Shown here: in pieces, positions 3,379 through 31,078 of the stretch
Position numbering within the stretch: the stretch's first letter is position 1
Layout: every line of letters starts with the position of its first letter
Assembly (NCBI GenBank): GCA_022538095.1
Contig: JAKYXN010000054.1
Coordinates: 1 to 36,059, forward strand
Length of the DNA stretch: 36,059 bases
Source: Puniceicoccaceae bacterium K14
GTDB taxonomy: Bacteria > Verrucomicrobiota > Verrucomicrobiia > Opitutales > Opitutaceae
Direction of reading: 5' to 3'
The notes under the pieces: model-generated
Seen by the model: only the letters and a program-made list of their open reading frames with translations
What the model was told of the DNA's origin: nothing
Databases searched by the model: none
Translations under genes and position numbers: made by a program

Positions 3379-3408
3379 AAGTCTATTGGATAACTCAAAA
3401 ATTAACTT
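3379..3408 (-). promoter_or_regulatory. Shared operator-like element, copy 1 (upstream of BNR_4 gene)
   Basis: In the gene direction it reads AAGTTAAT, six bases, GTTATC, then ATAGACTT. It has the same register as four other copies in the window, with the third block weaker and shifted by one base. It lies about 100 bp before the ATG at 3280. The 9-mer ATTAATTAA follows 22 bases after AAGTTAAT, the same spacing as in copy 3. Confidence 0.55.
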
Positions 3409-3464
3409 ATTATGCTTTGGAGTATCTCAAGCTCTGAGTGTGAAATGGACACTCGTGAAGGTAT

Positions 3465-3498
3465 GAAAAAGCGAGCCCCCATTGCTGATGGCTCGCTT
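3465..3498 (-). terminator. Intrinsic terminator of the TonB-dependent receptor gene
   Basis: On the minus strand AAGCGAGCC pairs perfectly with GGCTCGCTT (9 bp, 12-nt loop), and the T-run continues with three more T. It lies about 30 bases after the receptor stop codon at 3529 and separates this gene from the next one downstream. Confidence 0.85.
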
Positions 3499-3528
3499 GA
3501 AGTATTTCAAAATTATGGAAACGTCTTT

Positions 3529-6447
3529 CTACCAGGAGATAGTGTTTGTTAACATATAGGACCTTGGTTGTGGGATCCTGTAGTTGTAGTAAACAGGGAG
3601 GTCGTCAGCTTCAGCTCTCTCAATTGCCCGACTAGCAGTGTATTCTTGATCATCCAAAACGTTTCGAATGTTCAATTGGATGCTCCAGTTTACCTTGTCG
3701 TTCATTAGTTTTCGGCTGTAACGAATGTGAAGACCGGTATCCAACTTGTCGGAGCCATAGTACGGCTTGTCGAGATCTATGAGGTTCGTTTCGTCTAGGG
3801 CATGACCGATGACGGGTTTATCCTGCCAGTTTAAGTATCCGCCGATAGCGACGCCTTTGAGTGCGCCGTCCCATGCGAAATCATAATTGGATACGAGGCT
3901 GAACTTCCATTCACGCAATTCGGTTTGTGGTGTGCCGTCTTGACGCTTAAGGTTGGCAATGTCTCGCTTCATTTCGTCTAGCAATTCACCGACCGTGATG
4001 TTGTTGCTTGCAGCGACTTGCAGGTCGGAGAATTCCCGTAGAGCAGCTTCGTTTTCAGTGTAGTATTTGCTTCCAGAAGGAAGGCTGTTGCTGCGTACTG
4101 CTTCGTTTCGACTTCCCATCAATGAGATTCTCCATCGCTTGGTTGGGTTGTAAGAAGCTGAGAATTCTATTCCTTCTACGTCGAGATCGACGGTGTCGGT
4201 GACAGATGTAAGGATTTTTTCTGACATGCCAAGTTCTTCCCAAATAGCATCGAACTTCTTAGATATGCTGCCGGGTGTACCTCCGCCTAGACGGGCATTT
4301 CGTTGCCCTCCTTCGAACCAAGAGATTTTTGCCTGCAGTTTGTCTTCAAACATAGCGAACTTGAATCCATAGTCGATCGTTTGTCCCTGGGAGTTCGGGC
4401 TAGTGAAACCTTGGAAGTTTTTCGCTACGGTAGCTGGCTCGAAGTTGTTTGCTCGATTGTAGGTAAGGGAGAAATTGTTTAAGATTCCATCGCTTTGTAT
4501 GAGCTTGTATACTACACCGTAAGAATAGGTTTCTTCGGAGATTCCGGAGACAGCCTCGTTCAGGGTTAGGGGTGTGAGGCTTTCTTTGAAGGATGCCCAG
4601 GATCCGTCACTGTTTTGTACCCAGTTTGCTCTGTCAACTTCGTAAGCGTCTTGCGTATCACGGCGGATACCGTAAGTGGCTATTAGCTTTTCGTTGAAAA
4701 GGTGACTTTGCCCTGCGAAGAGTATGGCCGTTTGTTCAGTCTCCGTATCGTATCCGGGAACGAAATTTAAGTATTCCGCTTTTATGCCTGGAAGCTTGGA
4801 CAATTGCGTAGGCCAGTTTTCTAGTTTTAGATCTTCGGCCGGTGTTCGATCTCCGCTTTCGAGATCTTGGTAAAAGACGGGAGCGATTAGGTTTTCACTG
4901 TGTAGTATATTTGCGTTGTAGCCTTCCAAGGGCGTGACGTTGTAAAGGCGGCCGATATCGACTGCGAGCGTGCCAGATTCTTCTGAAAACATGGCGGAGA
5001 ACATGTGTCGTCCGAGTAGCTTTCCTTTATCTCGTAGGTCGAGTTTGTAAGAGGCGGTTAACCGTACATTCTCGTTTGTGTATGCGGTTGGTGTGTACCA
5101 AACGGAGTTGGCGAAAGTAAGTAGGCTACCTGCATTCAAGTTCGGAGTGACTCCATCGTTGAGTGTTTCGCTGGCGTCACCATAGAGGCTGTATCCACTT
5201 GCCCATCTTACATCCTTGTTGTGTTCATTTTGGAAGTAGGCTAATTGAACGTAGAAGTTCTCATTGATTTTTTGTTCGATGGAAATGTCACCGATCATGA
5301 AGTCTCGAGAGTCTGTCCGCTGATTTCCTAAGTTTATTGTATGATCGTAGAGATCGAATGGTGTAGGCTGTGAGTGTTTTCTTTCAATTCCTATGGGGTT
5401 CCATCCGGATACTGCGTAGTTTTTCCAACTTTGGACTCTGTTGTTTGGGTCTGGGTCGAGTGAGCCAAACATGATACGAGTATTGTCTACACCGGTGATG
5501 CGATTTACCTGATCGAGCTCACCTTCTGGTGTATCGCCGGGGTTAAGGATACCGTCTACGACTATGGTTGGTTTTCCGGCGTCTAGCCAGTTTGTAACCA
5601 TGTTTGTGATGACATTGGGTCCAGCAGTATTGCGGATGGATTCTCCGAATTCGAGATTAGCATTAATGGTTGTGTTCTGAAAAGGTTTCCATGCTACGGC
5701 GCCGTAGAAGCGGCGTTGATCGAAGTATTGAGGATCGCGGAAATACTCGTGCTTGTCATTGAGGTAGTTAAACCTAACGCCCAGCTTGTCCTCTACGAGG
5801 ACGCGGTTGAATGCTAATTCTAAGCGGTTCGAGCCGTTATCGTCAATGCGATTTCTTATTTGATTTGTATTGCGATTGGTGTTTGCTGGGCTGAGTTGTG
5901 TATTGACGACCCCAGCCGGATTTGCGATGCCGAATAGGATCGCGTTAGCTCCCGCAGAAAGGGTTGCTCGGTCCATATTGTATCCATCTGCTTGAGGCAT
6001 GTATTCGCCTTTTGGAGCCGAGAAAAAATTACGAGCAACTGATTGAGTAGGCAATCCGCGGATTCTGATCGCGGTGGCGAAGAATACGTCATTTTCGCCC
6101 TGAGCCGCTGTTTGAGTCGATTCCGGTTCGGTACTGGGCAGGAATTTCGCAAGGTCCTGGATATTAGAGACGCCCAGGTCATCCATGAATGTCTTTGAGA
6201 CGAGAGTGAGTGCTGCCGCTACGTCCTCTGAATTGGAGTTTAGGCGATTTGCGGCCAAAGTGTCGCTCACGAAGTAGCCTTCTGACTGGTCCGCTTGTAT
6301 GGTGAACGGTGAGAGTTCGTAGACTTCCTTGGGTTCAGTTGTCTCATCCTGCGCAAATAGTCCGGTGGAAGCGATTGTTGCAAGGCTCACAGAGGCTTTG
6401 AAGACGCGACTTGTTTGGCGTGTTAGATTGTTTTGGGGTTCTTTCAT
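3529..6447 (-). CDS. TonB-dependent receptor (outer membrane oligosaccharide uptake)
   Basis: The protein has 972 residues. A signal peptide (about 1-32, cleavage near LFAQ) is followed by the lead-in EVYELSPFTIQADQSEGY, which is characteristic of verrucomicrobial TonB-dependent receptors. The plug spans about residues 50-200, with IRIRGLP and ANAILFGIANPAGVVN marking its core. The rest is a beta-barrel with repeated aromatic strands, ending in an aromatic residue (TNTISW), as expected for BamA-dependent insertion. No SusD-type partner is encoded nearby, which is normal for this phylum. It should carry oligosaccharides of the target glycan into the periplasm, where the ABC importer at 17.5-21.0 kb can take over. 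It is probably transcribed alone: the shared element lies about 205 bp upstream and a strong terminator follows. The family is certain; the substrate is inferred from neighbours. Confidence 0.95.
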   Translation of the reverse strand: MKEPQNNLTRQTSRVFKASVSLATIASTGLFAQDETTEPKEVYELSPFTIQADQSEGYFVSDTLAANRLNSNSEDVAAALTLVSKTFMDDLGVSNIQDLAKFLPSTEPESTQTAAQGENDVFFATAIRIRGLPTQSVARNFFSAPKGEYMPQADGYNMDRATLSAGANAILFGIANPAGVVNTQLSPANTNRNTNQIRNRIDDNGSNRLELAFNRVLVEDKLGVRFNYLNDKHEYFRDPQYFDQRRFYGAVAWKPFQNTTINANLEFGESIRNTAGPNVITNMVTNWLDAGKPTIVVDGILNPGDTPEGELDQVNRITGVDNTRIMFGSLDPDPNNRVQSWKNYAVSGWNPIGIERKHSQPTPFDLYDHTINLGNQRTDSRDFMIGDISIEQKINENFYVQLAYFQNEHNKDVRWASGYSLYGDASETLNDGVTPNLNAGSLLTFANSVWYTPTAYTNENVRLTASYKLDLRDKGKLLGRHMFSAMFSEESGTLAVDIGRLYNVTPLEGYNANILHSENLIAPVFYQDLESGDRTPAEDLKLENWPTQLSKLPGIKAEYLNFVPGYDTETEQTAILFAGQSHLFNEKLIATYGIRRDTQDAYEVDRANWVQNSDGSWASFKESLTPLTLNEAVSGISEETYSYGVVYKLIQSDGILNNFSLTYNRANNFEPATVAKNFQGFTSPNSQGQTIDYGFKFAMFEDKLQAKISWFEGGQRNARLGGGTPGSISKKFDAIWEELGMSEKILTSVTDTVDLDVEGIEFSASYNPTKRWRISLMGSRNEAVRSNSLPSGSKYYTENEAALREFSDLQVAASNNITVGELLDEMKRDIANLKRQDGTPQTELREWKFSLVSNYDFAWDGALKGVAIGGYLNWQDKPVIGHALDETNLIDLDKPYYGSDKLDTGLHIRYSRKLMNDKVNWSIQLNIRNVLDDQEYTASRAIERAEADDLPVYYNYRIPQPRSYMLTNTISW

Positions 6448-6651
6448 ATTTTCGTAGTTATAGCAATTATGGTCTATTGTTGGGATTCAACGTGGTCATA
6501 ACTCAACCGATTGTGGCTGTAGGGTGGGTAAGGGGGGAGATGGGTGTTTTTCTTGTGACACTTTTTCTCTGGCGCCATCGCTTAAATAGAAATCGAACGA
6601 CAGGCGAATCAGGAGATTTAATAGAATGAAAATTCAATTCAGATATATTAC

Positions 6652-6680
6652 AAGTAAATAATTAATCAAATAATTAACCT
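6652..6680 (-). promoter_or_regulatory. Shared operator-like element, copy 2 (upstream of TonB receptor)
   Basis: In the gene direction it reads AGGTTAAT, six bases, ATTAAT, two bases, TTTACTT. Block spacing is identical to copies 3, 4 and 5. It lies 205 bp before the receptor ATG, further out than the other copies, which suggests a long 5' leader. Confidence 0.6.
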
Positions 6681-6803
6681 TCATGATTAATCATTGGTTT
6701 TTTCGGATTAGGATCAGTGTAAATCGATGTTTTGATGCTCTCGTTTTTACTTTATTGAGAGTGTTATTGGCGCTTGGAGTGCGCCTGTTACGCACAGTGA
6801 GGT

Positions 6804-6830
6804 TAAGCCGAAAGGCTTAGCCCTTTCGGG
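6804..6830. terminator. Two adjacent GNRA-like hairpins 3' of the GH172-like gene
   Basis: TAAGCC-GAAA-GGCTTA (6804-6819) is followed by CCC-TTTC-GGG (6821-6830). They lie about 40 bases after the stop at 6869. Neither has a T-run on the minus strand, so they may be a processed or Rho-dependent 3' end rather than a classic terminator. Confidence 0.4.
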
Positions 6831-6868
6831 TAAAACTGAAGATACGCGAATTCCGGTTAATCGATTGC

Positions 6869-8574: not shown

Positions 8575-11327
8575 TATTCGTCGGACGCGAAACCGGGCAT
8601 TTGAAGAAACCCAGCTTCGTGGGTTTCCCAGAAGCTGCCGCCAGGGCGTGCCCAGGCCATCCAGGATTCGTCTGCCATGCGACGGATGTTTATATTATAA
8701 GCGATTCGATCCAGCTCTGCGGTGGACATATCCATGGCGTCCAATGGGAGTCGCAATTCAAGAGTCCAATCTTGTGGATTTGTTTTTGAAGCGAAGGTGA
8801 TGGCTTCCTGTACGCGCGATGCTTGCCTTTCAGTGGTGTTGCCAACTGGGATTACTTCAAAGGAATTGTCTGGGTAGCAGTGTAGGAGGAATGTTGGACT
8901 CGTCCCGGTGCGTGGATCTCGAATGACGATTTCGAGCCCGTCGCGTTTTCCCCATTTGCCTTTCATTACGAGGGGTTTGGACGTTTCGTGGACGACCTTT
9001 GCAAATAGGAAAAACGCTTGGCCGTCGTAGCCGACTTGGCTGTATCCAATTTTGTCACAGTAGTTGCCTGCAATGGCGATTTGGCAATGTGTCTTATGTT
9101 TTGCATTTTCGCTCCATTCGCCGGAGCTGGCTTGTCCATCGATTTGGATAGCGCCTTCTTCAATGCTTTGAATGACTGCCGACTTCCGTGCGCCTCTTAG
9201 GTCGGCGGCGGAAGCAATGTCGGAGAGTGGGGTGACGTCTGGGCCGTATTTGAATGCGGGGGAGGGACGCCATGGGTCTGGATACAGACCCATTTTTGTA
9301 TATGGAATTGGGGTGTAGTCACCTAGGTCCTCAATGGATGATAAATCGCTCGTACTGAAATCTAATGAATCGATGTCACTGAGACCGGGGTCACCGTCTA
9401 CGATCGCGTTTCCTGCAATTGTGGAGGTTTTCATAACGTAGGCTCGGTTTTGCACACGAATTCCGCCACTTCCTGCGATTAGGTTATTCTCAATCTCGTT
9501 CCCGGAGGCAAAGTGAGCTTCAACGGGATCCAAGTCGAAAATCGGGGGAATCTCAGGGTATCGAGAGCGCCAGATTTCCGTATTCCAAGGAGCTTGCTTC
9601 GTTGCGATGTAAGTACCGTCTCTGGCTCCGTTTTGCGCGGCTTGAGCTTTGAAGCTGTCTGTGCCTCGGCTTGCGTAATCGATAGAAGTATCACAGTTGA
9701 GTATCATGTTATTGGTTACCGAATTGTCTTTGCCGCCACCAATGTGAATCCCGATGGAGGCCATGGTTGCGATGTTGCCGTGGACGGTGACTCCGCTAGT
9801 GTGATCGTCGAAGTAGTAGGCGCGGCAACCGGCTCCATCCAGGGGTGATCCGAGGGCGTGAACGAGATTGTGACGGATGATTGTTCCGCGTTTACTCCAG
9901 TCTCGTGTGCAGGAATATATTGCTCCTGTGTCGCTCGCGTGAAGGGCGACATCATGAATGATATTGTATTCAATTATATGGTCGTTTCCGTCGAACGTGA
10001 GGGCGGTGTGAGGCGTATTATATATCAGGTTGTGTCGAGCGCTTGCCCCTGTTCCGTTGAGGGATACGCCGGGGCGATAGGTGCTTACGGTTTGGGCAAT
10101 GTCGTGGATGTGGCAGTTTTCGACTCGGTGACCGCTAGGAGTTAGGGTGGCTCTGTCGCCTCCGTGCAGCTCGCATCCTCCTTCTCCAAGGTGGTGAAGG
10201 TCGCTGCTTAGAACTTGGCAGTTCCAACCGCCGTTTATATCGACTGCCCATCCTCCGGTTTGTCGGATGGTTGATCCGATGATTGTTATGTTTTCGCAGT
10301 TGGTGAGGTTGATTGCGCTTCCGGTGGAGTTCGCGGCTGTTAGTTTTTCTATTCTAAGATGTTTTGCGTTGTTTGCATCGATAACGTGTTGATTCATCGA
10401 GAGGCTGAGCGGAGCTTCGCTAGGAGGAGCAATCGGCCAGATATAGAGTATTTGGTTTTTGCGGTCGATGGCCCATTCGCCGGGCGTGTCTAGTTCGGAA
10501 ATAGCGTTGAATACGTAGAAGTCTCGATTTTCGCGGAATCCATAAGCGTGGGTTTCCGGATTTTGCAGAGCTACTGTTTGTTCGATGAGATCAATGCTCT
10601 TTAGAGGCATGCGCTGGTCGGCCCAATGGTGAAACCATTTGCCGTCGAACCAGAGGTCGGTTTCAGTTTTCCACCTGCGTAAGCGTTCAGTGTCTTCATG
10701 TTTGAATACGCCAGAATAGGAGGTCAGGATGTCCTTGCGGTCGCGGAATTGTTCGACTTTGCCTATGATTTCGCCTGTCTTTGCGTAGCCTTTGTTCGGC
10801 CAGCGAGCGATTGGGAGGCGAGTGTTGTTTTGGTAGAGTTGGACGGGATTCTGTTTGTCTCCTTGGAATCCTGCTCCGCCCGAGCTGAAGCCTTCAAGGG
10901 GTCCTGAGGTGAGTGAAGAGAGGTCGAATTGTTGGACGTGGTCTCTCGCGGAGAGAGGGATTTTATTTAAGACGGCATCGTCTTTTATTTCTTGAAGCTT
11001 TGAAATTTGGATCCCCGCCGAAAGAATCGTTTTTAGGCAGTCTGACCCTCGGTAGATTGCCGGAGCGTTGGGAAGTCCGGAGTCTGCTGCCTCGAAACGA
11101 ATTGCATTTGCGAGAGGGTAGAGGCCGGGAGCTATTTCGACAATGACTCCGTCTTCTGGGTAGGAGGAATTGGATTTGATGTTTCGTATTTCATCGCGAG
11201 CGGCCTCGATGGTCGTGAAGCCGCCCTGTTGGGTTTCATCGCCTCTGGTATGTACCTTGAGGAGTAGAGGCGCGGCGGATAGTTGAAAATGAGCCAGCAC
11301 GGTAGCTAGCAGTATTGGGATTCTCAT
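8574..11327 (-). CDS. Exported right-handed beta-helix protein (GH141-like) with C-terminal CBM9/DOMON-like domain
   Basis: This 917-residue protein starts with a signal peptide (MRIPILLATVLAHFQLSAAP). The first domain has the pectate-lyase-like entry (FTTIEAARDEIR, then VIVEIAPGLYPL). Residues about 330-560 contain repeated Asn-rich beta-helix rungs (INLTNCENITIIGSTI, HNLIYNTPHTALTFDGNDH). The combination of ARWPN after an inserted beta-domain and the helix resembles GH141, a family with alpha-L-fucosidase and xylanase members, but I cannot separate it from other beta-helix families by eye. Residues about 705-905 look like a CBM9/DOMON-type module (IQIDGQASSGEWSENA, then WTLELRLPLDAM). It probably acts outside the cytoplasm. 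It opens the coupled three-gene group and lies 141 bp downstream of the exported SGNH gene. Beta-helix fold is high confidence, GH141 membership moderate. Confidence 0.75.
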   Translation of the reverse strand: MRIPILLATVLAHFQLSAAPLLLKVHTRGDETQQGGFTTIEAARDEIRNIKSNSSYPEDGVIVEIAPGLYPLANAIRFEAADSGLPNAPAIYRGSDCLKTILSAGIQISKLQEIKDDAVLNKIPLSARDHVQQFDLSSLTSGPLEGFSSGGAGFQGDKQNPVQLYQNNTRLPIARWPNKGYAKTGEIIGKVEQFRDRKDILTSYSGVFKHEDTERLRRWKTETDLWFDGKWFHHWADQRMPLKSIDLIEQTVALQNPETHAYGFRENRDFYVFNAISELDTPGEWAIDRKNQILYIWPIAPPSEAPLSLSMNQHVIDANNAKHLRIEKLTAANSTGSAINLTNCENITIIGSTIRQTGGWAVDINGGWNCQVLSSDLHHLGEGGCELHGGDRATLTPSGHRVENCHIHDIAQTVSTYRPGVSLNGTGASARHNLIYNTPHTALTFDGNDHIIEYNIIHDVALHASDTGAIYSCTRDWSKRGTIIRHNLVHALGSPLDGAGCRAYYFDDHTSGVTVHGNIATMASIGIHIGGGKDNSVTNNMILNCDTSIDYASRGTDSFKAQAAQNGARDGTYIATKQAPWNTEIWRSRYPEIPPIFDLDPVEAHFASGNEIENNLIAGSGGIRVQNRAYVMKTSTIAGNAIVDGDPGLSDIDSLDFSTSDLSSIEDLGDYTPIPYTKMGLYPDPWRPSPAFKYGPDVTPLSDIASAADLRGARKSAVIQSIEEGAIQIDGQASSGEWSENAKHKTHCQIAIAGNYCDKIGYSQVGYDGQAFFLFAKVVHETSKPLVMKGKWGKRDGLEIVIRDPRTGTSPTFLLHCYPDNSFEVIPVGNTTERQASRVQEAITFASKTNPQDWTLELRLPLDAMDMSTAELDRIAYNINIRRMADESWMAWARPGGSFWETHEAGFLQMPGFASDE

Positions 11328-11468: not shown

Positions 11469-12764
11469 TTATTTTTCGTTTTCGATGAGCTCCCCTCGGA
11501 TTAAGAGCGCGTTTAGGTAGAGATTGTGTTGTTCGTACTTTTCTGGGTTTTCTTTGAAATCGCTGAAGCTTTTTCCTTCCGCCATGATGGACTCTTTGTT
11601 GGGCAGTGTATTGGAAGGATTGATGTGTATGGTGTGAGTGGTGTCCTGCAGGTTGGTGGATAGTATGCTCGAATTTAGGCGGGCGAAACTGCAGTATTTG
11701 TCGAACATGGTTTTACTGCGTGTCGTTCCATCTATGGTGTAGTCGAAAGTTCCAGAGTTCGGAGCGGCAATGCCGTAAACGCCGATGTAGGTCCCTTTGA
11801 AGGCGAAGGAGAGATAGTCCTTGGGTGAGGAGGCACACCAGAGTTCGTCTATGCGATCGCTAACCTTTTTAGCGATTGAGTTGTCGCTTGGGTCGAGACG
11901 TTGCCATTTTCCTTCGAGCGTAAGTTTGCTTAGCGGAATCATTTTGGCGTCTTCGAAGTTATTTGCCTCGAGTGGCGCTGGAAGCGGGTGTTCGCCAATG
12001 GGGCTTGCTTTGAAAAAGACGGGTAGGGCTCGTCGGATCTGTTTGAAGTAGAGAGGGTGCCCTGTGTCCGGGTAAGGGTGGACGCCATCGGGCGCGAAGA
12101 GGATTTTGCCAGCCAGATTGTTGAGTTGTTCTTCCGTGGTTGGCTTGGCTGCTTTCATCAAGAGGCTGCCGCTTTCTGCTAATATTGGAATTTCGTATCC
12201 CATGTAAATGGATGGAATCCCATAGTAGTCGGCTACTTCCTCCATGGCATTGGCTGCGTTTGCCAATAGTGTTCCGCCTTGAGTTTGGTCGAGGTAGGGT
12301 TCGGAGATGGAGTAGACGAAACAGATGTCGGTCCGAGGGTCGGCTTTTCTGATTTGGCGGACGATGCCTTCCATCGATTCGCGGAGGCTCTGTTTGGCGG
12401 TGTTAGCGTCGTTGACTGCGAATTCAATGAAAATGAGGTCTGGAGCGTATTGGAGTACGTCCTGCTGTACTCGGAATGCTCCCAACGCGGATGGTGTGCC
12501 TCCGACACCCGCTTCAATTTCTACATGTTGAGATTGTGGGTAGGACGCTTGTATCCAGCTTTGAGTAAGGACGCGCCAGCCTTCTTGTTTGGTGATACTT
12601 CCTCCAAGATAGCCGATGCGTACCGATTCTCCCGCTTCAAGCTTTTCGAAAGTATTGGCTAGCCCATTTCGACTCGTATGCGGGACGGCTTTTCTGTTTT
12701 CCGCCATGCAGGAGGTGGAAAGTAGCGCGAGTATCGTGGCGATTAGGGGAATCGTGAGTTTCAT
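11469..12764 (-). CDS. Exported SGNH/GDSL-type esterase with C-terminal beta-sandwich
   Basis: The 431-residue protein from the ATG at 12764 begins with a signal peptide (MKLTIPLIATILALLSTSCMA). A Cys in STSC might allow lipidation, but the lipobox is poor. The SGNH blocks are YLGGSITKQ with Ser56, GVGGTPSA, EFAVNDAN with Asn118, and APDGVHPYPDTGH with Asp226 and His229. The last 160 residues (LEGKWQRLDPS onward, FKGTYIGVYG) form a likely beta-sandwich, as in two-domain acetylxylan-type esterases. It probably deacetylates the glycan in the periplasm or outside. A frame open to 12830 adds 22 residues without a better start, and the hydrophobic core supports the inner ATG. It is the first gene of the minus-strand unit running to 6869. 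The shared element lies 92 bp upstream. Confidence 0.85.
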   Translation of the reverse strand: MKLTIPLIATILALLSTSCMAENRKAVPHTSRNGLANTFEKLEAGESVRIGYLGGSITKQEGWRVLTQSWIQASYPQSQHVEIEAGVGGTPSALGAFRVQQDVLQYAPDLIFIEFAVNDANTAKQSLRESMEGIVRQIRKADPRTDICFVYSISEPYLDQTQGGTLLANAANAMEEVADYYGIPSIYMGYEIPILAESGSLLMKAAKPTTEEQLNNLAGKILFAPDGVHPYPDTGHPLYFKQIRRALPVFFKASPIGEHPLPAPLEANNFEDAKMIPLSKLTLEGKWQRLDPSDNSIAKKVSDRIDELWCASSPKDYLSFAFKGTYIGVYGIAAPNSGTFDYTIDGTTRSKTMFDKYCSFARLNSSILSTNLQDTTHTIHINPSNTLPNKESIMAEGKSFSDFKENPEKYEQHNLYLNALLIRGELIENEK

Positions 12765-12855
12765 TTTTTGGAGCGATGATTGATTCGAGCCGTGGTTGTG
12801 GAACGTGCTTGGTTTTGGACGAATTTTCAAAGGACTATTTTGGAGTTAATTAATA

Positions 12856-12884
12856 AAGTCAAGAATTAGCTATCATATTAACTT
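12856..12884 (-). promoter_or_regulatory. Shared operator-like element, copy 3 (upstream of exported SGNH gene)
   Basis: In the gene direction it reads AAGTTAAT, six bases, GCTAAT, two bases, TTGACTT, followed by ATTAATTAA. The TTGACT could double as a -35 box. It lies 92 bp before the ATG at 12764 and just after the LacI-gene terminator. Confidence 0.65.
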
Positions 12885-20083: not shown

Positions 20084-20115
20084 GTTCTCCAGTTAAACGA
20101 AAAAAAGGAATTAGG

Positions 20116-20991: not shown

Positions 20992-21032
20992 TGAGATTTC
21001 AAATTCAGTAGCACACAATCGATAAAATAGTT

Positions 21033-22346: not shown

Positions 22347-22367
22347 TTATCTTGGACAAATAGATTT

Positions 22368-23387
22368 ATGGCGATTATTCAAAATGGAATCCGATTCTTT
22401 AATACGGAAGTATTGGAAGAACGAGAGGAATCAACTGGCTATCTGTTGCCGCGTATAAAGAAAGAATTTCGAGATCGACTCAGTCCTCGCGGCCAGTTCG
22501 TTGGTATGTGTTCCATTGGTGTGGAAATTCAGTTTGTCACAGATGCTCGAGATTTTCGAATAACTCTCTCAACTCCAGACCCTGAGCTCACTTTTGTGGT
22601 CTATTGCGGGGAGCTTGAGCATACGACTTTCAAAATTCCTGGGGGTCAAATTGTCACCACTCATATTGCGGCGTCAGAGCAATTAGCTTTGATCGATAAG
22701 GAAATTGTTGATGGCGCCTATGATTCGTCAGTATGGAGAATAGTCATACAGAAAGGATCAGCGATCTTTCATGGGCTTGATACATTCGGTTCGTCGCATC
22801 GAGCTCCAAGCGATAGCGAATTACCTCAATTGACGTGGTTGGCCTATGGATCATCCATTACAAATTCGACCGGCAAGGGCTATCCTCATCAAGCGGCTCG
22901 GGAATTAGGAGTGCAGATAGCCAATAAAGGCATGAGCGGCGCTTGTCGGGTCGAGCAGGAGATTGTGGACCAATTTACGCAGGTGGAATGGGACTTCGCA
23001 ACCTGCGAGCTTGGGGTGAATATGCGAGGCGATCAATTGCTAGCAGACCAGTTCGAAGATCGAGTAAACTACTTGCTTGATCAATTTTCCACTTCTCATC
23101 CGGGGAAGCCCATTGGACTCATTACCTTGTTTCCTAACGACAATCACTACTTTAAAGACATGCAGGCAATCGGGCCACGTCATCAAGCTCATTACAGCGA
23201 TGTGCTTCGAAAGTTGGCAGCGGAGAGAGCAGGAGAGGGTGTCTTCTTGATTGAGGGCTTCGATGTTCTTGATCGCTTCACGGGTCTTTATGTCGATTTG
23301 CTGCACCCCTGCGACTATGGGCATATTCGGATGGGGTTGAACCTCGCGCGAATTTTGAAGGAGAAACTGCCGGAGTTGTTGAAATAA
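22368..23387 (+). CDS. Cytoplasmic two-domain SGNH esterase (GxSSIT type)
   Basis: This 339-residue protein has an N-terminal beta-sandwich (about 1-150) and a C-terminal SGNH domain. The catalytic blocks are LAYGSSITN with Ser163 (Ser162 alternative), NKGMSGAC, CELGVNMRG with Asn218, and VDLLHPCDYGH with Asp310 and His313. This layout resembles CE2/CE20-like acetylesterases. No signal peptide is present, so it probably deacetylates imported oligosaccharides before GH29 or GH2 can act. It starts 21 bases after the fucosidase stop. It is the third SGNH enzyme in the window, with a different architecture from the two on the minus strand. Confidence 0.9.
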   Translation: MAIIQNGIRFFNTEVLEEREESTGYLLPRIKKEFRDRLSPRGQFVGMCSIGVEIQFVTDARDFRITLSTPDPELTFVVYCGELEHTTFKIPGGQIVTTHIAASEQLALIDKEIVDGAYDSSVWRIVIQKGSAIFHGLDTFGSSHRAPSDSELPQLTWLAYGSSITNSTGKGYPHQAARELGVQIANKGMSGACRVEQEIVDQFTQVEWDFATCELGVNMRGDQLLADQFEDRVNYLLDQFSTSHPGKPIGLITLFPNDNHYFKDMQAIGPRHQAHYSDVLRKLAAERAGEGVFLIEGFDVLDRFTGLYVDLLHPCDYGHIRMGLNLARILKEKLPELLK

Positions 23388-23473
23388 ACTAATTCAATTG
23401 GACGGATCCACTAAAAAATTAACGAGAGCGCTGCGATTGCGGCGATCGATAATGTTGCTCTTTGAGCGAAAGA

Positions 23474-25984
23474 ATGAAAAAATCAAATACATCTAAGGGA
23501 GCTGTGTGCTCAGAAAATACCGACTTGGTAGCTGTTAAGGGATTCGTCTCCCAACAAGTCGCAGTGCTAGAGAATAGTCACGTTCGTTTCGAATTTGATC
23601 TAAAGACAGGAGCTTACTCAGCTTCCGATATTGAAAACTCTGCTAATTGCATCGAGAAGGTCTATTTCAGTGTAAATGACGATAAATCTACTGATGGTTA
23701 TCACTTCAAAGCTGCTTACAGTTCCGTAGTAGAAAAATTGGGATCAGGCTCTGTTCTTACTGTAACTGGAAGTAGAAAAGGTTCAGCGGACATTATCTTA
23801 GCAGTTACTGTGTACGCCGGTAAGGGCGAAATTGCTTTGGGCTGCGGAGTGAAGGCGAATGAAGCAATGCGTATAATGAAGTTTTCACCGCTGATCGGCC
23901 ACGCTTTTAGCAATGCTAGTTTTGTCGATTTTAAGACGCTTGATGGAGAAAATGGTGAAGACCTAACCAGTGTTTCTTCTGCGGATACGCGTGAGTCGCT
24001 CAATAACGTAATGGCGACTTTTGGTGGTAAGGGCAAGGATCGACAGTCGATTGTTTTCGGCGGTTTGAGTTATGCAGAGTTTGTGAAGCATGCTGAAGTC
24101 GTGAGAAAAGAGGCACATTTGGAAATTGCAGCTTGGGCAGATGATCCGATTGGAAAACGTGTCGATGAGGGGGCTGTGTATCTAATGGATCGCGATCGAT
24201 TCTATATAGATTTTACTACTGAGAATCCGTTTGAAGCACTCGAGAAATACGGCGAAGCCCTCAAGTTGGCTAATCATGTAAAACTCGATAACATGACAGC
24301 TCCTGGGTTGAATTTCTGGTATTGCTCGACTCCCGAGTGGGGTGGCGGGAAGTTCCGCAATAATTCTACTGGAACCTTGGAAGCATTGCGGGAGGCAGAG
24401 GCGACCGGCTTTTTAGAGTATTCACCCTTGTGTGTCAGACTTGAGCCAGATGATTATGCCGAGCCAAATAACCAACAAGGATGGTGGGATGACGAGCATT
24501 GGCGAATGTATGAAGGGGGGCAGTTGCTCGAGCCATACGAGACCATGGAGAAATGGGGCAAAGCCATTTATGACAAGGGAGGCGTTCCCCTGATGTACTG
24601 CCAAACTGCAAGACGATCTCAAGATTACGCCGATGCGTATCCAGATCATATGTTATTCGGCGGTACGCTTACTCCTCGCAAACTAGGAAAGATCTACTGG
24701 TACGACGAGACGTATTGGAATTACGACTTCACTTCACCTGAGTTTCTTGAGCACATGAAGAAGGTGTACGAGAATCTTAATAAGTCAGGTGTTCGAGGTA
24801 TGAAATTTGATTACCCTGATACGGGATGGGCTTATGAAGGAGGATTTTGCGATCCGTATGCTACAACGACTTCAGCCTATCGCGCTATTTTTGAGCTCGC
24901 CCACCATGGTTTGGGTTGGAACTCGGATATTCATGAGCGATTGCCGCTGCATGGAGACGTATGTCTCGGCGTTGTGAGCACTCACCGTACTGAGCCGGAT
25001 ACAGATCGATTCTACCCCTCAATGGCCATGAAATGTGGACTGCGTTGGTATAAGAACCGGACAGTCGTTAAGTATGTAAACGATGTCATAAATCCTGAGC
25101 ACGCTTTCCCGCATAATAGCGATGGCTGGCGGACTATGTTTACCATGAGCTATTTGACCAATGGTCGGGTTGAGATTGGTAAATATATCGAAGACATGAG
25201 TGATGAAATGCGTAAAGATCTTACGCGAGTGATTCCATTGTATGAAGGGGAGAGGAGCGCGAAACCGGTCGATGCCTTTACGGGGGGCGAGTATCCTCAA
25301 ATATTTGAATACAAGATTAGCGATTCGTGGCGCTTGGTTGTTTTCTACAATACTGAAGTAGAAAAAGATGTTGAGAAAGCGAAGCTTTCGTGGAAATCGA
25401 TACCCAGAGAGTCGAATGCGAATTTAGAAGATGTAGAACCTGACGCTCTGACAAATTGGCCTAAGCAGCGTCCCGGAATTCGAGAGCCGGCCTTAACCGT
25501 TCCGGTAGCTTCGACTATTTCCGTCTCTTTGGAAGATGAAGATCAGGACGGAGGATTAGGTTTGGATGGGAGCCGTAGTTACTATGTTTATGATTTCTGG
25601 AACCAATGTTTTATTGGGAAATATCAGGGCTCGTCGAAACTTAGCCAAAGTCTGCGACCGGGTGAAACTCGCATGATGGCCATTCACGCTGTCGAGCAGC
25701 ATCCTCAGTTCATTTCTACTAACCGGCATATCATGCAAGGCTATGTTGATATGGCCCGCTATCCGGAATGGAATGAAGTGAATCGAACTCTCAGCGGAGT
25801 ATCTAAGGTCGTGGGTGGAGAAACTTACAAGGTCGTTATTGCACTCAATGGAGGGACTCCTACTCAGTCCTGGGCTGGAGGGGCTGATTGCCAGCTTCAA
25901 GTTGTCGATGGATCGAATGGAATTGTAGAACTTTGTATAGATGCATTGGAGACCGGCGATGTCGCATGGTCTGTTAAGTTTTAG
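23474..25984 (+). CDS. Clan GH-D-like (GH36/GH27-related) glycoside hydrolase, cytoplasmic
   Basis: This protein of about 836 residues has an N-terminal beta-supersandwich (about 20-255), a TIM barrel (about 275-590) and a C-terminal beta-domain. The strand VRGMKFDYPD (Asp446) matches the place of the catalytic nucleophile of GH36 and GH27 enzymes, and THRTEPDTDRFYP in the next strand region could carry the acid/base. The tail has YDFWNQCFIGKYQG and FISTNRHIMQGYVDM, seen in uncharacterised alpha-galactosidase-like proteins. Alpha-galactosidase or another alpha-glycosidase is likely, but the subfamily seems remote from known ones. I chose the ATG at 23474 over a TTG at 23462. No signal peptide. 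It lies between an esterase and a sulfatase in the operon, so a sulfated or acetylated galactose/fucose backbone is plausible. Confidence 0.7.
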   Translation: MKKSNTSKGAVCSENTDLVAVKGFVSQQVAVLENSHVRFEFDLKTGAYSASDIENSANCIEKVYFSVNDDKSTDGYHFKAAYSSVVEKLGSGSVLTVTGSRKGSADIILAVTVYAGKGEIALGCGVKANEAMRIMKFSPLIGHAFSNASFVDFKTLDGENGEDLTSVSSADTRESLNNVMATFGGKGKDRQSIVFGGLSYAEFVKHAEVVRKEAHLEIAAWADDPIGKRVDEGAVYLMDRDRFYIDFTTENPFEALEKYGEALKLANHVKLDNMTAPGLNFWYCSTPEWGGGKFRNNSTGTLEALREAEATGFLEYSPLCVRLEPDDYAEPNNQQGWWDDEHWRMYEGGQLLEPYETMEKWGKAIYDKGGVPLMYCQTARRSQDYADAYPDHMLFGGTLTPRKLGKIYWYDETYWNYDFTSPEFLEHMKKVYENLNKSGVRGMKFDYPDTGWAYEGGFCDPYATTTSAYRAIFELAHHGLGWNSDIHERLPLHGDVCLGVVSTHRTEPDTDRFYPSMAMKCGLRWYKNRTVVKYVNDVINPEHAFPHNSDGWRTMFTMSYLTNGRVEIGKYIEDMSDEMRKDLTRVIPLYEGERSAKPVDAFTGGEYPQIFEYKISDSWRLVVFYNTEVEKDVEKAKLSWKSIPRESNANLEDVEPDALTNWPKQRPGIREPALTVPVASTISVSLEDEDQDGGLGLDGSRSYYVYDFWNQCFIGKYQGSSKLSQSLRPGETRMMAIHAVEQHPQFISTNRHIMQGYVDMARYPEWNEVNRTLSGVSKVVGGETYKVVIALNGGTPTQSWAGGADCQLQVVDGSNGIVELCIDALETGDVAWSVKF

Positions 25985-26040
25985 TATTTTCCAGAATTTG
26001 GTTTTGGTTGATTTTTTTAACTGATGAGTTCTTTAACATT

Positions 26041-27393
26041 ATGAGTTCGCCCAATGTCCTATTTGTAATTGCTGACGATCATAGGTTCAGCGCTATTGAA
26101 GCTCTCGGTCGGGAGTCGGTTGCGACTCCTTTCATCGACGAACTGATGAGCCAAGGGACAGCGATGAGCGGCGCTCGTATTATAGGTTCATGTCAAGGAG
26201 CTGTCTGCATACCTACTCGCGCTTCGATTCATACTGGAGTAAATCATTTCAAGAATGCTCCGCTCGATAATGATATGCCGGGTATGGCTCTTCGCCCGGA
26301 GCTGCCGTTGCTGGCGGAAGTTTTCCAGAAGTCTGGTTATCGTACATTTGCCACCGGAAAATGGCACAATGATCGGGCTAGCTTTAACCGTTCCTTCGAT
26401 TCTGGTAAGGCCATTTTTTTTGGCGGAATGGCGGATCACTTTGATACACCGCTTTGGGATTATGATCCGACGGGCGAGTATGGCATGGAGAGTTCGCGTA
26501 AGGAATCTAAGCACTCGACGGAAATTTTCTGCGATGCTGCAATTGATTTTATAGTACAACAGGATAAGGGGACCCCCTTTTTTGCTTACCTGGCGTTAAC
26601 TTCGCCTCATGATCCCAGAACCGCTCCCACTGAATATCATAGCTTGTACCCGGCTGAGTCTATCGATTTGCCATCCAACTTCACGCTGGAGCATCCATTT
26701 GACAATGGCGAGTTGGCGGTGCGCGACGAGTGTCTGGCAGCGCATCCAAGGAGCGAATCGGAGATTAAAAAGCATATCTCGGATTACTATGCGATGATTA
26801 CGCATCATGACCGTAACCTCTCGCGAGTTAATGCTGCTTTGGAGGCGATGGGCTTAGAAGATAACACGATCATCGTTTATATGGCGGACCATGGTCTGGC
26901 GGTGGGGCAGCATGGTTTGATGGGGAAGCAAAATGTTTATGATCATAGTATTCGTGTGCCCCTCATTGTAAAAGGGCCGGGAATAAAAGAGGGTCAAAAG
27001 CGTTCTGAATTGATATACAGCTACGACATCCACCCGACTTTGTTGGATATGTGTGGATTGGATCACTCATCAACCATTGAAGCGGAGAGCTTTTTCTCGG
27101 CACTCAGTGGGGATTCGTATCGTCCTCGTGAGACTTTGTATACGCATTATTGCGACAAGCAAGCAACTGTGACGGATGGTCGTTGGAAATTGATACGATA
27201 TTTCGAGCCTAGCTCGAATGGCCACCAGTGCGTGCGCCAGCAGCTCTTTGATTTAGAAAATGATCCTTATGAAACCTGTGATCGATCGGAAGAGGCGATA
27301 GCTAGGGCGATTATTGAAAGGCTCACTCAGGCGATGTTTGAATGGCAAACTCAATTAGGGGACCCTCTTGGGCGTTCAGAATCCGTTTGTTAG
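26041..27393 (+). CDS. Cys-type sulfatase (formylglycine-dependent), without signal peptide
   Basis: The 450-residue protein starts at the ATG at 26041 (MSSPNVLFVIADD); an in-frame TTG at 26008 is less likely. The metal-binding pair is Asp12-Asp13. The sulfatase signature CIPTR lies at residues 56-60, so Cys56 would be converted to formylglycine. MADHGLAVGQHGLMGK in the second half supplies further metal and sulfate ligands. It should remove sulfate esters from a sugar. It lacks any export signal, unlike most carbohydrate sulfatases, so it probably acts on imported oligosaccharides in the cytoplasm. No maturase is encoded in the window. It is the last gene of the plus operon and overlaps the convergent isomerase gene by 18 bases at the 3' end. 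Sulfatase family is certain; subfamily unknown. Confidence 0.93.
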   Translation: MSSPNVLFVIADDHRFSAIEALGRESVATPFIDELMSQGTAMSGARIIGSCQGAVCIPTRASIHTGVNHFKNAPLDNDMPGMALRPELPLLAEVFQKSGYRTFATGKWHNDRASFNRSFDSGKAIFFGGMADHFDTPLWDYDPTGEYGMESSRKESKHSTEIFCDAAIDFIVQQDKGTPFFAYLALTSPHDPRTAPTEYHSLYPAESIDLPSNFTLEHPFDNGELAVRDECLAAHPRSESEIKKHISDYYAMITHHDRNLSRVNAALEAMGLEDNTIIVYMADHGLAVGQHGLMGKQNVYDHSIRVPLIVKGPGIKEGQKRSELIYSYDIHPTLLDMCGLDHSSTIEAESFFSALSGDSYRPRETLYTHYCDKQATVTDGRWKLIRYFEPSSNGHQCVRQQLFDLENDPYETCDRSEEAIARAIIERLTQAMFEWQTQLGDPLGRSESVC

Positions 27394-28197
27394 CCTGATT
27401 AGAGTGGCTGCGTCTTCTCTTGCTTGAGCTAGGGTATCGTTCTTAACAAACTCGAGTAGGGCAAAGTGGTCTCGTCTCGTTTGAGAGGCGATTTTGAAGT
27501 ACTTTTTCCAGTGATTCTCACCGTCACTGAGGGGATGCCTGTGAAAGTCGTCTGGATACACAAGCGGGCGAATTGTTTCGTTAAGGGTGTTCGCTTCGTA
27601 AGAGCCGATTGTCCAATGATAGGTGTGCAATGTGCTTAAGCGGTCAATGAGGCCGATGAGACCGTGAAGTTTGTGTAGCAAATCGTATCCATGAGGGGGT
27701 TGCCACGAAAAAAAGACGTTGGGGTGGGGGACTCGTTTCGAAAAGGCGACTGCGTTCGCGCTGTTGTCAGTGAGTGACCCGCCGTGAAATTCGAAGGTAA
27801 TTGAGATGTCTTGCGCGGCGGCCATGTCGGCAATCCGATGAGTGTCATCGACTACTTTTTGGATATAGGAAGAATCGGCTTGAGAGGTATCTTTGTCTCC
27901 AGCCCAAACCCTTATCGCAGGGGCTCCTAGGGCGCTTGCGGACGCCAAGATGTCGTTGAACGACAGCCCTTCTGACTCGCTGATGCCAGCTCGATAGTAG
28001 GCGCCATAAGACGCGACTTCGAGACCAGTTGATCGAGTGAGGTTTCCGACTTTTTGAGCAGTTGAAATATCACCGGGTGGTACGTGTTCGCCGCCCCACC
28101 ATTCCATACCTTGGAGGCCGGTTTCGCTAGCGAATGCAATGATGCTTTCTGGAGAGTAGCGAGCGAGTGTGATAGTGCAAATTCCGGCTTTGATCAT
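27376..28197 (-). CDS. Sugar phosphate isomerase/epimerase-type TIM-barrel protein (AP-endonuclease 2 superfamily)
   Basis: This 273-residue protein matches the xylose-isomerase-like TIM-barrel superfamily. It has GICTITLARYSPESIIAFASE at the start, GLQGMEWWGGEHVPP on the second strand, APAIRVWAGDK, the metal-ligand strand ISITFEFHGG and the late HTYHWTIGSY. Members isomerise, epimerise or dehydrate sugars, inositols and keto-acids. Its ATG overlaps the TAA of the dehydrogenase (TAATG), so it belongs to the symporter-dehydrogenase-isomerase operon and is translated with it. The operon probably imports and converts one monosaccharide or sugar acid released from the glycan. Exact reaction not recognisable. 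Confidence 0.85.
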   Translation of the reverse strand: MIKAGICTITLARYSPESIIAFASETGLQGMEWWGGEHVPPGDISTAQKVGNLTRSTGLEVASYGAYYRAGISESEGLSFNDILASASALGAPAIRVWAGDKDTSQADSSYIQKVVDDTHRIADMAAAQDISITFEFHGGSLTDNSANAVAFSKRVPHPNVFFSWQPPHGYDLLHKLHGLIGLIDRLSTLHTYHWTIGSYEANTLNETIRPLVYPDDFHRHPLSDGENHWKKYFKIASQTRRDHFALLEFVKNDTLAQAREDAATLIRLTNGF

Positions 28198-29201
28198 TAT
28201 GAAACTACTTTGTTACGAAGAGGGCGGCCCGCTCTCCATCGTTCGAAATCTTCGATTATGAAGTCTGCCATTCGTTGTATTTCGTCGTTCGAACTGCCAG
28301 CTATGTGGCTCGTCATATAGACGTTTTCCAGTTGATAAAATGGACTTCCTATCGGAGGGGGCTCTGGGTGTTGGACGTCTAATAGCGCGTTTAAATCAGG
28401 GCGTTGTTTGAGTGTTTTGACGAGCCCTTCTTCATCTACCTGGGTACCTCGCCCTGTGTTTATGAATGTGGCGTCTTGTCTCATCGATTTGAAGTGGGAT
28501 TCCTTGAGTATCTTATAATTTTCTTTTGTCTCACAAAGGTGGTTACTGATGACGTATGATTGAGCGAATACCTCCTCGATGCTCACCAATTCGTGGATTC
28601 CCAATGTATGAGCATCGCCTGGGTTTTCGCTTAGTTCGGGGCTCACTGCGATCACGCGTAGGTTGAGAGGCTTCAGCAAGCTAAGTAGGTGACGACTCAC
28701 AAAGCCGACTCCAATGAGGCCGATAGTCTCGCCGTACGCTCCTTTGCCAACAGGCATATCGCTCTGTATCCACGGTCCTGTTTTGCAGAGCCGCATGTTT
28801 CGGTAGGCGCCTTTTAGTGAAAGAAGAATCTGAGCAAGGCAAAACTCTGCGACTGGAATGGCATTGGCCTCGATCGCATTTATTACTTTGATGCCTTTGT
28901 CCAGAAATGGCCTTGCAAAGTGGTCGACTGACCCACCTGCATAAAAGACGGCCTTTAAAGAAGGCATTTTTTCGATCATTTTCGCGTCAAGCGAAGGCAT
29001 GCCCCAACAGGAAAAAATTGCTTCTACTTGGCCAAGATTATCTATCTCGTCTTCAATGTTTTTGGACGTGATTCGAGTAGGATGCAGGTCGGTTTGTTTA
29101 GCGATGTGTTCGCAACGATCAGCTCCGTAGACGAATTCGACAATGTCCCCTTGGTGAAAAGAGACGTCATCGGCCATGATTACGGTTTTTATTTTACTCA
29201 T
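28197..29201 (-). CDS. D-isomer-specific 2-hydroxyacid dehydrogenase (NAD-dependent)
   Basis: This 334-residue protein has the D-2-hydroxyacid dehydrogenase layout. The dinucleotide motif GLIGVGFVSR is at 161-170. The catalytic residues are Arg251 in INTGRGTQVDE, Glu280 in DVQHPEPPP and His299 in MTSHIAGS. The family reduces 2-keto acids or oxidises D-2-hydroxyacids. In a carbohydrate locus, the substrate may be a sugar acid or a keto-deoxy product. It overlaps the symporter gene by 8 bases and the isomerase gene by one. The second residue of the usual GxGxxG is intact, with Ser169 in place of the last Gly, which is tolerated in the family. Family certain, substrate unknown. Confidence 0.93.
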   Translation of the reverse strand: MSKIKTVIMADDVSFHQGDIVEFVYGADRCEHIAKQTDLHPTRITSKNIEDEIDNLGQVEAIFSCWGMPSLDAKMIEKMPSLKAVFYAGGSVDHFARPFLDKGIKVINAIEANAIPVAEFCLAQILLSLKGAYRNMRLCKTGPWIQSDMPVGKGAYGETIGLIGVGFVSRHLLSLLKPLNLRVIAVSPELSENPGDAHTLGIHELVSIEEVFAQSYVISNHLCETKENYKILKESHFKSMRQDATFINTGRGTQVDEEGLVKTLKQRPDLNALLDVQHPEPPPIGSPFYQLENVYMTSHIAGSSNDEIQRMADFIIEDFERWRAGRPLRNKVVS

Positions 29202-30990
29202 ATAACCCGGTGGGGAGGCTCTTGCGTTTTTTCAAATAGATTCGATAGAGCATCGCTCCGATGCCAAAGATGATTCCGCCGACAAATAGAAAGCAAAGGC
29301 GACCCTCGATGGGGTTGGGGATAAGCATACCCAGCAAAGCGAATGTTCCGAATATTAAGCATATTATCCCGACAGTGCGGTATTGCATTTCGTCATGGTC
29401 GATTACGTCTTCTTTTTCGTGATCGATGGGCGTGTTCATCTTCTCGAAAAAGTGGTCGACCTGTTTGCGGTAGTCCGGGCTTGTCTTTTCGTAGAAGACT
29501 GAAGTGAAGAAAAACCAAGCGATGGATACGGCAAATACGATAACGGAGATATAAATGAATTCCGCGTCTGATGCTTCGAGCTTGTTGAGGGGGCTGCCGC
29601 CGCCAAATAGATTCTCAAGAAGCGAATCCGAAAGGCTCGCCTTGGCTAGCGCGCCTGCGAGTAGACCGACTAGGACAGTGCTCCAGCCAGACCACCCGGG
29701 AGTGCGTTTGTAGATGACGCCCAGAGCAATCGGAGTGATGGAAGGTACTAGAACCATCGAGTTGAGAACCTGGAAGATCTCGAACAGGTTCATTGAGCGG
29801 AGTTCATTGAAAGCGAGCCCTATGATGAGTGTTATGAAACCGAATACGAGGGTGAATATTCGTCCCATGAAGAGTTGTTTGCTCTCAGTCGCTTCGGTGG
29901 AAATATATTTTATATATACATTGCGCACGAAATAGCCGGCATTTCGATTGAGGGCTGAGTCCATGGAGGACATGGCTGCTGCGAACATCCCGCAGATCAA
30001 CAGTCCCATCATCCCTTGTGGGAGCGTAAGGAAGGCCATGGCGAGGAAAGCGCCTTCTTCCGGGATTTTCATATCAGGGAATATTGCGCTCATATCTGGA
30101 ATGATATTCGCGGCACACATGGCAGGGAGCTGCATGATTAGAGTGATCGGAATAATGGTTATCATAAAGCGCATGGCGATTGTGCCCCGCGCCTGTTTTC
30201 CATCTTTTACTAGCAAATATTTTCCGCCTTCTCCGTTCAGGTTCAGGGTTTGGAATGCGTTGCTCATCTGCATGACGAGTATCCACATGATTAGGATGCT
30301 CGGGCGAAGGTCCAAAGTGAAATCGAAGTGTCGATCTGGAAGAACGTTTTTTAAATTAGAGATTCCACCAATGTCTGATAGGCGGAGTGTGAAGAAGACA
30401 ACGACGAGTACGGTCAAAAACATCAATAGCCCTTGTACAAAGTCGCTTGCAGCGACCGCCCATTGCCCGCCGAAGAGGGACATAATCGTGACGATGGAGA
30501 CGATTCCAATCAATGTGATGGGTACGTTGATGCCTAAGGCGCCTGCGAAGAAAACAGCAGCTGCGTTGGCCCCTACGCCTCCCCAGAATAAGCCCATTGG
30601 CAAAATAAGGTAGACGAAGAACTGCTCGGTCCCAACGCCGAAACGCTGGGCCACCGCTTCGATTGTGGTTATGACTCGCATTTGGCGAAATCGTGGAGCC
30701 ATAAACCAAAGTATGGAGACTGAAATCAGTCCGCCAATCAACCATGTTAAAGGGAGAAGAAAGCCACTTTGGTAAACTTTTGCTGAGGCAGCCGTAAAGC
30801 TCCAGGTGCTTATGCTTGATATTATTGCGGACATGCCTGCGATCCACCAAAGCATGTTTCCGCCACCGCGGAAATAGTCGCTAGAATTCCGGTTGATTCG
30901 TCTAAATAGGAAGCCAATTCCTATTATGAAGGCGAAGTAAAAGCAGATTACGACCCAATCCCAGGAGTTTAGGTTAGTGTTAATATTCAT
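29194..30990 (-). CDS. Sodium:solute symporter (SSS/SLC5 family)
   Basis: This 598-residue inner-membrane symporter has about 14 helices. It starts with WDWVVICFYFAFIIGIGFLF and the family motif NSSDYFRGGGNMLWWIAGMSA. FAAAMSSMDSALNRNAGYFV is the conserved segment near helices 8-9 that contributes the sodium site. It imports a small solute such as a monosaccharide, sugar acid or inositol with sodium. It is the first gene of a three-gene operon with a dehydrogenase and an isomerase. A copy of the shared element lies 60 bp upstream, so it should be co-regulated with the glycan operons. Compared with the truncated symporter at the left edge, this one is complete and of usual length. Confidence 0.94.
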   Translation of the reverse strand: MNINTNLNSWDWVVICFYFAFIIGIGFLFRRINRNSSDYFRGGGNMLWWIAGMSAIISSISTWSFTAASAKVYQSGFLLPLTWLIGGLISVSILWFMAPRFRQMRVITTIEAVAQRFGVGTEQFFVYLILPMGLFWGGVGANAAAVFFAGALGINVPITLIGIVSIVTIMSLFGGQWAVAASDFVQGLLMFLTVLVVVFFTLRLSDIGGISNLKNVLPDRHFDFTLDLRPSILIMWILVMQMSNAFQTLNLNGEGGKYLLVKDGKQARGTIAMRFMITIIPITLIMQLPAMCAANIIPDMSAIFPDMKIPEEGAFLAMAFLTLPQGMMGLLICGMFAAAMSSMDSALNRNAGYFVRNVYIKYISTEATESKQLFMGRIFTLVFGFITLIIGLAFNELRSMNLFEIFQVLNSMVLVPSITPIALGVIYKRTPGWSGWSTVLVGLLAGALAKASLSDSLLENLFGGGSPLNKLEASDAEFIYISVIVFAVSIAWFFFTSVFYEKTSPDYRKQVDHFFEKMNTPIDHEKEDVIDHDEMQYRTVGIICLIFGTFALLGMLIPNPIEGRLCFLFVGGIIFGIGAMLYRIYLKKRKSLPTGLYE

Positions 30991-31049
30991 TGATAGAGGT
31001 AGTTTCTTTACCTCTGATCATTGCTGGCTGGAGAATATTGCAAACAAAT

Positions 31050-31078
31050 AAGTTAAAAATTAACAAAAATATTAACTT
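31050..31078 (-). promoter_or_regulatory. Shared operator-like element, copy 5 (upstream of symporter operon)
   Basis: In the gene direction it reads AAGTTAAT, six T/A-rich bases, GTTAAT, two bases, TTAACTT. Here the outer blocks AAGTTAA and TTAACTT are perfect inverted repeats, which reveals the dyad character of the element. It lies 60 bp before the symporter ATG. Confidence 0.65.

Follow-up and report, generated by a model that had tools for sequence, protein, structure and literature searches.

An element with an outer dyad ahead of five transcription units of a candidate glycan-degradation locus, with a LacI-type protein lacking the hinge helix as its possible regulator

The stretch of DNA analyzed here is contig JAKYXN010000054.1 of Puniceicoccaceae bacterium K14, 36,059 nucleotides long (hereafter the window), whose Pfam matches mark it as a probable glycan-degradation locus. 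Five intergenic sites, S1 to S5, each ahead of a transcription unit, share an element of 29 or 30 bp bounded by an outer dyad with an AT-rich centre (Table 1). This is almost certainly a genuine cis-regulatory element, through which a protein encoded next to the five units probably controls them jointly. The favoured binder is a LacI-type protein, encoded between two of the sites and lacking the hinge segment of its family, to which we assign a probability of about 0.5.

A three-block element confined to one locus

Scanning the window with the full 29-bp pattern, AAGTTAATNNNNNNGTTAATNNTTNACTT, at up to three mismatches returns S5 with no mismatch, S3 and S4 with one each and S2 with two; 100 shuffles of the window give no match to this pattern at that threshold. 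S1 is missed because it is 30 bp long, its middle block is degenerate (GTTATC) and its third block, TAGACTT, is displaced by one base, while its first block is perfect. An earlier note, made from the sequence alone, had described a 29-bp pattern with fixed internal spacing in all five sites, a description that fits four of them and has to be relaxed for S1. The feature common to all five is the outer dyad, whose arms agree at 5, 5, 6, 5 and 7 of 7 positions in S1 to S5, the copy before the symporter operon being perfect as the note had claimed. In S1 the middle block is worn, yet the outer arms extend to 13 nt with 85% complementarity. We read the outer dyad as the essential part of the element.

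The element contains the half-site word GTTAA three times, in two direct copies and one inverted copy, with the outer copies forming the dyad. The 12-base repetition of GTTAAT proposed earlier is borne out in S2 to S5, where a direct repeat of this period agrees at 25 of 32 positions and every other period from 8 to 25 at 18 or fewer. Among placements of inverted 7-bp arms in the same four sites, positions 1-29 score best (23 of 28; runner-up, 19). A spacer of 13 bp separates the outer octamers in four sites, and one of 14 bp in S1. The outer dyad has no central CG, and the inner 17-bp arms agree at only 3 to 6 of 7 positions. An extra GATTAATCA copy is found upstream of and overlapping S2 (6657-6695), where it forms with S2 a 12-nt inverted repeat, 92% complementary, with the arms 15 nt apart.

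The shared pattern exceeds what the composition of these regions yields. A seed-and-match comparison of the five upstream regions gave 66 matching positions out of 87 for the top 29-mer seed taken with its three closest partners; 150 dinucleotide shuffles averaged 53.4 and reached at most 56. Leave-one-out matrices built from S2 to S5 recovered the omitted site in all four cases, ranked directly after the three training sites. In the assembly, which spans 5.72 Mb in 358 contigs and is 97% complete, a search for the full pattern with up to three mismatches finds four places, S2 to S5, all in the window; the reversed control gives no forward and two reverse matches. With at most one mismatch, the outer dyad written as AAGTTAAT-N14-TTNACTT finds S2 to S5 only (one of them on both strands; control, two forward and one reverse), and with the N15 spacer it finds S1 only (control, one and three). 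All five outer-dyad places in the assembly thus lie inside this 36-kb contig. As the controls show that an occasional chance match is to be expected at this stringency, the clustering and placement of the sites carry the weight.

Chance similarity of AT-rich intergenic DNA might have been favoured by the base composition of the five upstream regions (38-47% G+C) and by the 13-bp inner core GTTAATNNTTNAC, which was tried as a signal and rejected, as its 7 assembly matches against 18 in the reversed control place it at chance level and make it uninformative alone. The shuffle scores and the genome-wide exclusivity of both the full pattern and the outer dyad refute this explanation and leave it a negligible probability. 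The earlier note had been concerned that AT-rich DNA might score similarly throughout the genome; no further place appears at up to three mismatches, and its proposal that the element defines a regulon is upheld by this confinement to one locus. An Rfam search of the window matched no RNA family.

All five sites point towards their gene, again as first described. Such a fixed orientation would suit a reading of the element as a promoter or sigma-factor target in which TTNACTT is the −35 box; in S3, TTGACT is followed at 17 bp by AATAGT, and a 4-of-6 match occurs at 15 bp in S2. In S1, S4 and S5, however, the −10 matches are no better than the random mean of 3.2 of 6, no sigma-factor gene occurs among the 22 window proteins scanned, and the dyad would be left unexplained, so that this explanation appears highly improbable. 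Other promoter placements were set aside as inconsistent across sites, the best being a −10 inside S3 (TTGGCA-17-TATGAT), with a weaker −10 in the first block of S1.

Candidate regulators of the element

The LacI-type protein is encoded by a gene flanked by S3 and S4. Its helix-turn-helix (HTH) domain is just over the Pfam cut-off (PF00356, 28.8 bits against 27), and its sugar-binding domain is far above it (PF13377, 105.7 bits against 26.5). Two alignments, one of the 51 of 87 retrieved LacI-type N-termini with a recognizable HTH word and one at full length with 17 other proteins, show the hinge segment between HTH and core to be short by nine or ten residues. This is the longest hinge deletion in both alignments, in the second by one residue over a protein labelled L081. 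Since two further LacI-type proteins, L060 and L039, also have shortened hinge segments, the loss is not unique to this protein, and it may be recurrent in the LacI family. In the AlphaFold model (18 sequences; mean predicted local distance difference test score, pLDDT, 83.5; predicted template modelling score 0.75; pLDDT below 50 at 52-54), the third HTH helix is predicted to run to residue 53 and the core strand to start at 58, with no separate hinge helix. The conserved hinge helix of canonical LacI members, with its Leu, is accordingly absent from this protein in both alignments and model.

This absence bears on what the protein could read. In the portion of PMC2978694 available to us, hinge Leu-54 is tied to the central CG of the operator, into which it inserts in canonical members. 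The available text of PMC4052901 counts even palindromes for 1251 of 1303 LacI-type regulators, 1173 of them with a central CG, and against this catalogue the element is indeed unlike a CG-centred LacI operator, as the earlier note had argued. That argument does not exclude the present protein, because the hinge helix that makes the CG contact is missing. The same source places more than 75% of LacI-type sites 30-140 bp from the gene start, a range that includes four of the five sites here (59-204 bp). The LacI recognition code in the accessible part of PMC2978694 yields no usable prediction for the triplet read as Pro/Ala/Leu.

We propose that a local regulator, most likely the LacI-type protein, uses the element as its operator and controls the five units jointly. 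A dimer of this protein would probably occupy the two outer half-sites, AAGTTAA and TTNACTT, which are separated by about two turns of the helix and enclose the third copy of the half-site word, GTTAA. Lacking the hinge helix, such a dimer would need no central CG and could tolerate the wide, slightly variable half-site spacing, as CytR does. Binding of a sugar fragment of the glycan to the sugar-binding domain would then change the expression of all five units together; by analogy with the family, the direction is guessed to be repression. A hinge-less LacI member reading a CG-free operator is thus a coherent but unproven proposition. More tentative still is the specific architecture, a three-half-site operator that combines a direct repeat with an outer inverted repeat and is read in two major grooves two turns apart rather than by bending the DNA at a central CG.

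Several observations weigh against assigning the element to the LacI-type protein. The outer dyad, at 29-30 bp, is longer than the 16-22 bp spanned by the known LacI motifs described in the text seen of PMC4052901, and the uniform orientation of the sites (chance, 1 in 16) is more in keeping with an activator that acts directionally than with a symmetric operator. The recognition helix, in our own reading, has Leu where the usual TVSR set (1490 of 2639 domains) has an Arg linked to G, and each outer half-site carries a G despite this. A simple dimer leaves the middle GTTAAT copy unexplained, and the genomes searched contain no relative in which co-occurrence of site and regulator could show.

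The earlier statement that no site lies upstream of either regulator gene holds by orientation, although S4 is situated in the divergent region between lacI and the GH2 gene. Between lacI and S4 there are also two related 24-nt stretches with AGTTAAG (14067-14187), 97 bp apart and 71% alike, possibly half-sites for lacI autoregulation. Two planctomycete LacI-type proteins, from loci L054 and L059, have the same HTH start as this protein (NQKDIAEKLNIS); a conserved pair of adjacent TTTTCGAAAA palindromes immediately upstream of them (9941-9960 in each locus) is likely their autoregulatory operator. The palindrome was considered as a related operator and rejected, as it differs from the element.

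A XylR-type regulator is the second local candidate and the main rival, and would bind the element as an activator. It has a strong precedent in XylRA of a Vibrio strain. According to the accessible text of PMC12125979, five genes of an algal xylan locus in that strain are preceded by AT-rich sites made of two repeats, and XylRA bound all of these in vitro, one of them weakly. The present locus resembles that regulon in having AT-rich sites before five units and a local sugar-binding regulator, and the uniform orientation and the 12-bp recurrence of GTTAAT would also suit such a protein. The XylRA sites, however, are two direct repeats, whereas the element of this locus has inverted outer blocks that enclose a third copy. 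Direct repeats in AraC-type sites are spaced roughly 21 bp (20-22 bp). In S2 to S5, agreement at periods of 20-22 bp reaches just 14-17 of 32, against the 25 at period 12.

Further evidence comes from the surroundings of xylR itself. Neither xylR nor the divergent ATPase gene has a site in the window, and the element is absent from the intergenic region between them both here (32366-32453) and in a related genome, G082, where counterparts of the two genes, with 39% identity for XylR and 70% for the ATPase, are likewise adjacent and divergent. G082 has no element match at up to three mismatches genome-wide and no good matrix score in the 16 kb scanned. The 45 bp before the xylR start share 25 ungapped identities with G082, and the shared part takes in TCGTAAAA, a sequence with a single occurrence in the window. 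A count of 25 was attained in 3 of 20000 single-base shuffles, an indicative figure, as the stretch was picked after being seen. The TCGTAAAA block is put forward as a candidate shared promoter or XylR site. At the xylR locus of G082, five intergenic stretches yielded no common motif above the shuffle maximum. Matches to the XylR-type protein occur in 5 of 252 family genomes at E 1e-43, and the ATPase gene is seen beside xylR in G082 only, the other three loci, which are short, showing none. The two XylR proteins do not have the same second recognition helix and could therefore have different sites; with one relative to compare, the conserved pair suggests that XylR controls its own gene and the ATPase gene through another sequence. 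Binding of the element by the XylR-type protein is rather unlikely on this evidence, and in this the locus departs from the XylRA regulon.

A regulator encoded elsewhere in the genome is less probable than either local protein. Nothing in the data ties the LacI-type or the XylR-type protein physically to the DNA, which leaves room for such a regulator, but no site lies outside the locus at up to three mismatches, and the gene for a distant regulator would thus have no such site of its own.

The glycan locus and related genomes

Searches of related genomes, also proposed in the earlier note, uncovered no other genome with a cluster of sites among 252 family genomes and a sample of 384 class genomes. 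Nine of the 252 family genomes have a match to the full pattern at up to three mismatches, the source genome being the only one with more than one. In the class sample, 34 genomes have a match; besides the source genome only G265 and G315 have two, and these are unlinked (on different contigs or a megabase apart). The closest outside matches, in G011 and G408, have two mismatches, and that in G011 (locus L005), a single match before a DUF899 gene, was examined and taken as chance.

The LacI-type protein is similarly isolated. At E 1e-21 the source genome alone matches among the 252 family genomes; in 150 of these the best other E value is 1.4e-20, with listed identities of about 23-36%. A GTDB scan with this protein gave 61 loci with best-segment identities of 22-32%, its exact-peptide seeding being liable to miss moderate relatives. 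No orthologous locus was found through the protein in the family genomes or in the peptide-seeded scan. With neither the protein nor the motif cluster having a counterpart, both are peculiar to the source genome among those searched. For the same reasons, the related genomes do not discriminate between the candidate binders.

Relatives of the GH2 protein occur in 6 of 149 other genomes at E 1e-100, with 42-45% identity. Their neighbours mostly differ (GH29-like in G117 and G063, sulfatase-like in G117, TonB-receptor-like in G144), and no lacI or xylR match at E 1e-8 was found around them within the DNA fetched. The best matrix scores in the loci of the GH2 relatives and of G082 range from 4.6 to 17, compared with 32.7-35.5 for the real sites, in a scan that covered 7 of 10 stretches of one set and none of the two in a second. 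The regulon therefore looks local and specific to this lineage.

Table 1. Coordinates of the sites, genes and other features in the window
Feature	Position	Strand	Description and basis	Sequence
S1	3379-3408	−	30-bp variant; 98 bp before the BNR_4/PA14 gene	AAGTTAATTTTTGAGTTATCCAATAGACTT
S2	6652-6680	−	204 bp before the TonB-receptor-like gene	AGGTTAATTATTTGATTAATTATTTACTT
S3	12856-12884	−	91 bp before the probable SGNH esterase start	AAGTTAATATGATAGCTAATTCTTGACTT
S4	14237-14265	+	72 bp before the GH2-importer operon; 223 bp before divergent lacI	AAGTTAATTTATAGGTTAATACTTGACCT
S5	31050-31078	−	59 bp before the SSF symporter operon; outer dyad perfect	AAGTTAATATTTTTGTTAATTTTTAACTT
LacI-type regulator	12991-14013	−	340 aa, without hinge helix; Pfam LacI and Peripla_BP_3	
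XylR-type regulator	32454-33635	+	Sugar-binding domain and AraC HTH; Pfam Peripla_BP_3 (PF13377) and HTH_18 (PF12833)	
Block before xylR	32418-32453	+	Conserved in G082; ungapped comparison	TCGTAAAA...ACGAC
Unit 1	797-3280	−	BNR_4/PA14 protein; Pfam	
Unit 2	3529-6447	−	TonB-receptor-like protein; weak Plug (E 0.0024) and NCBIfam TonB receptor (E 9e-6), both below cut-off	
Unit 3	11469-12764	−	SGNH/GDSL protein; Pfam; lipoprotein-type signal peptide	
Unit 4	14338-27393	+	GH2, solute-binding protein, two permeases, GH29, GDSL, 840-aa protein, sulfatase	
Unit 5	27376-30990	−	SSF symporter, 2-hydroxyacid dehydrogenase, xylose-isomerase-like protein	
ABC ATPase	31223-32365	−	UgpC/MalK-type; divergent from xylR; no site	

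Within the locus, gene spacing suggests that units 4 and 5 are operons. The run of genes with the solute-binding protein and two permeases contains no ATPase, the UgpC-type ATPase gene adjoining xylR instead. Further Pfam families in the locus include DUF2961, GDSL esterases and a beta-helix protein. The 972-aa product of unit 2 is weakly TonB-receptor-like. For unit 3, the earlier note was right in placing a site upstream of the SGNH esterase gene, but the gene probably starts at the ATG at 12764 rather than at the mechanical open reading frame start, a TTG at 12830 (frame 11469-12830), because a lipoprotein-type signal peptide begins there in the translation. The 840-aa protein of unit 4 (23462-25984), possibly an unnamed glycan enzyme, has no Pfam or NCBIfam match at E 0.001 and a weak one to Melibiase_C (E 0.051). 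At the left end of the contig, an SSF symporter frame of 240 aa (30-752) matches the first third of the profile and is probably truncated or frameshifted.

Known operators and implications

Canonical LacI-family local regulons, as far as the text seen of PMC4052901 describes them, use mostly CG-centred palindromes of 16-22 bp, in contrast to the longer, AT-centred element of this locus. The CytR operators of enterobacteria offer a closer parallel. In the available portion of PMC3454398, CytR recognizes octamers arranged as inverted repeats with 10-13 bp spacers, and accepts inverted or direct half-sites at variable spacing. A LacI-family regulator, inverted half-sites and a wide, variable spacing (here 13 or 14 bp) are features common to both systems. 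CytR differs in acting with CRP and, according to the same text, in half-sites that read GTTGCATT or similar. The LacI-type protein scores 71.3 bits against the CytR profile, for which the cut-off is 436, and is not a CytR orthologue.

In the literature on Verrucomicrobia, no title on such an operator appeared among the matches listed, which is weak evidence that little may have been written on how such loci are regulated; a literature search with the half-site letters gave nothing relevant among the matches listed. As a kind, a local regulon is known; what is unusual here is the operator and its candidate regulator. The locus holds five sites and two candidate regulators on which binding can be tested. 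If the hinge-less LacI-type protein does bind these sites, its family, in which the rules of recognition presuppose the hinge contact, would gain a clear non-CG operator architecture.

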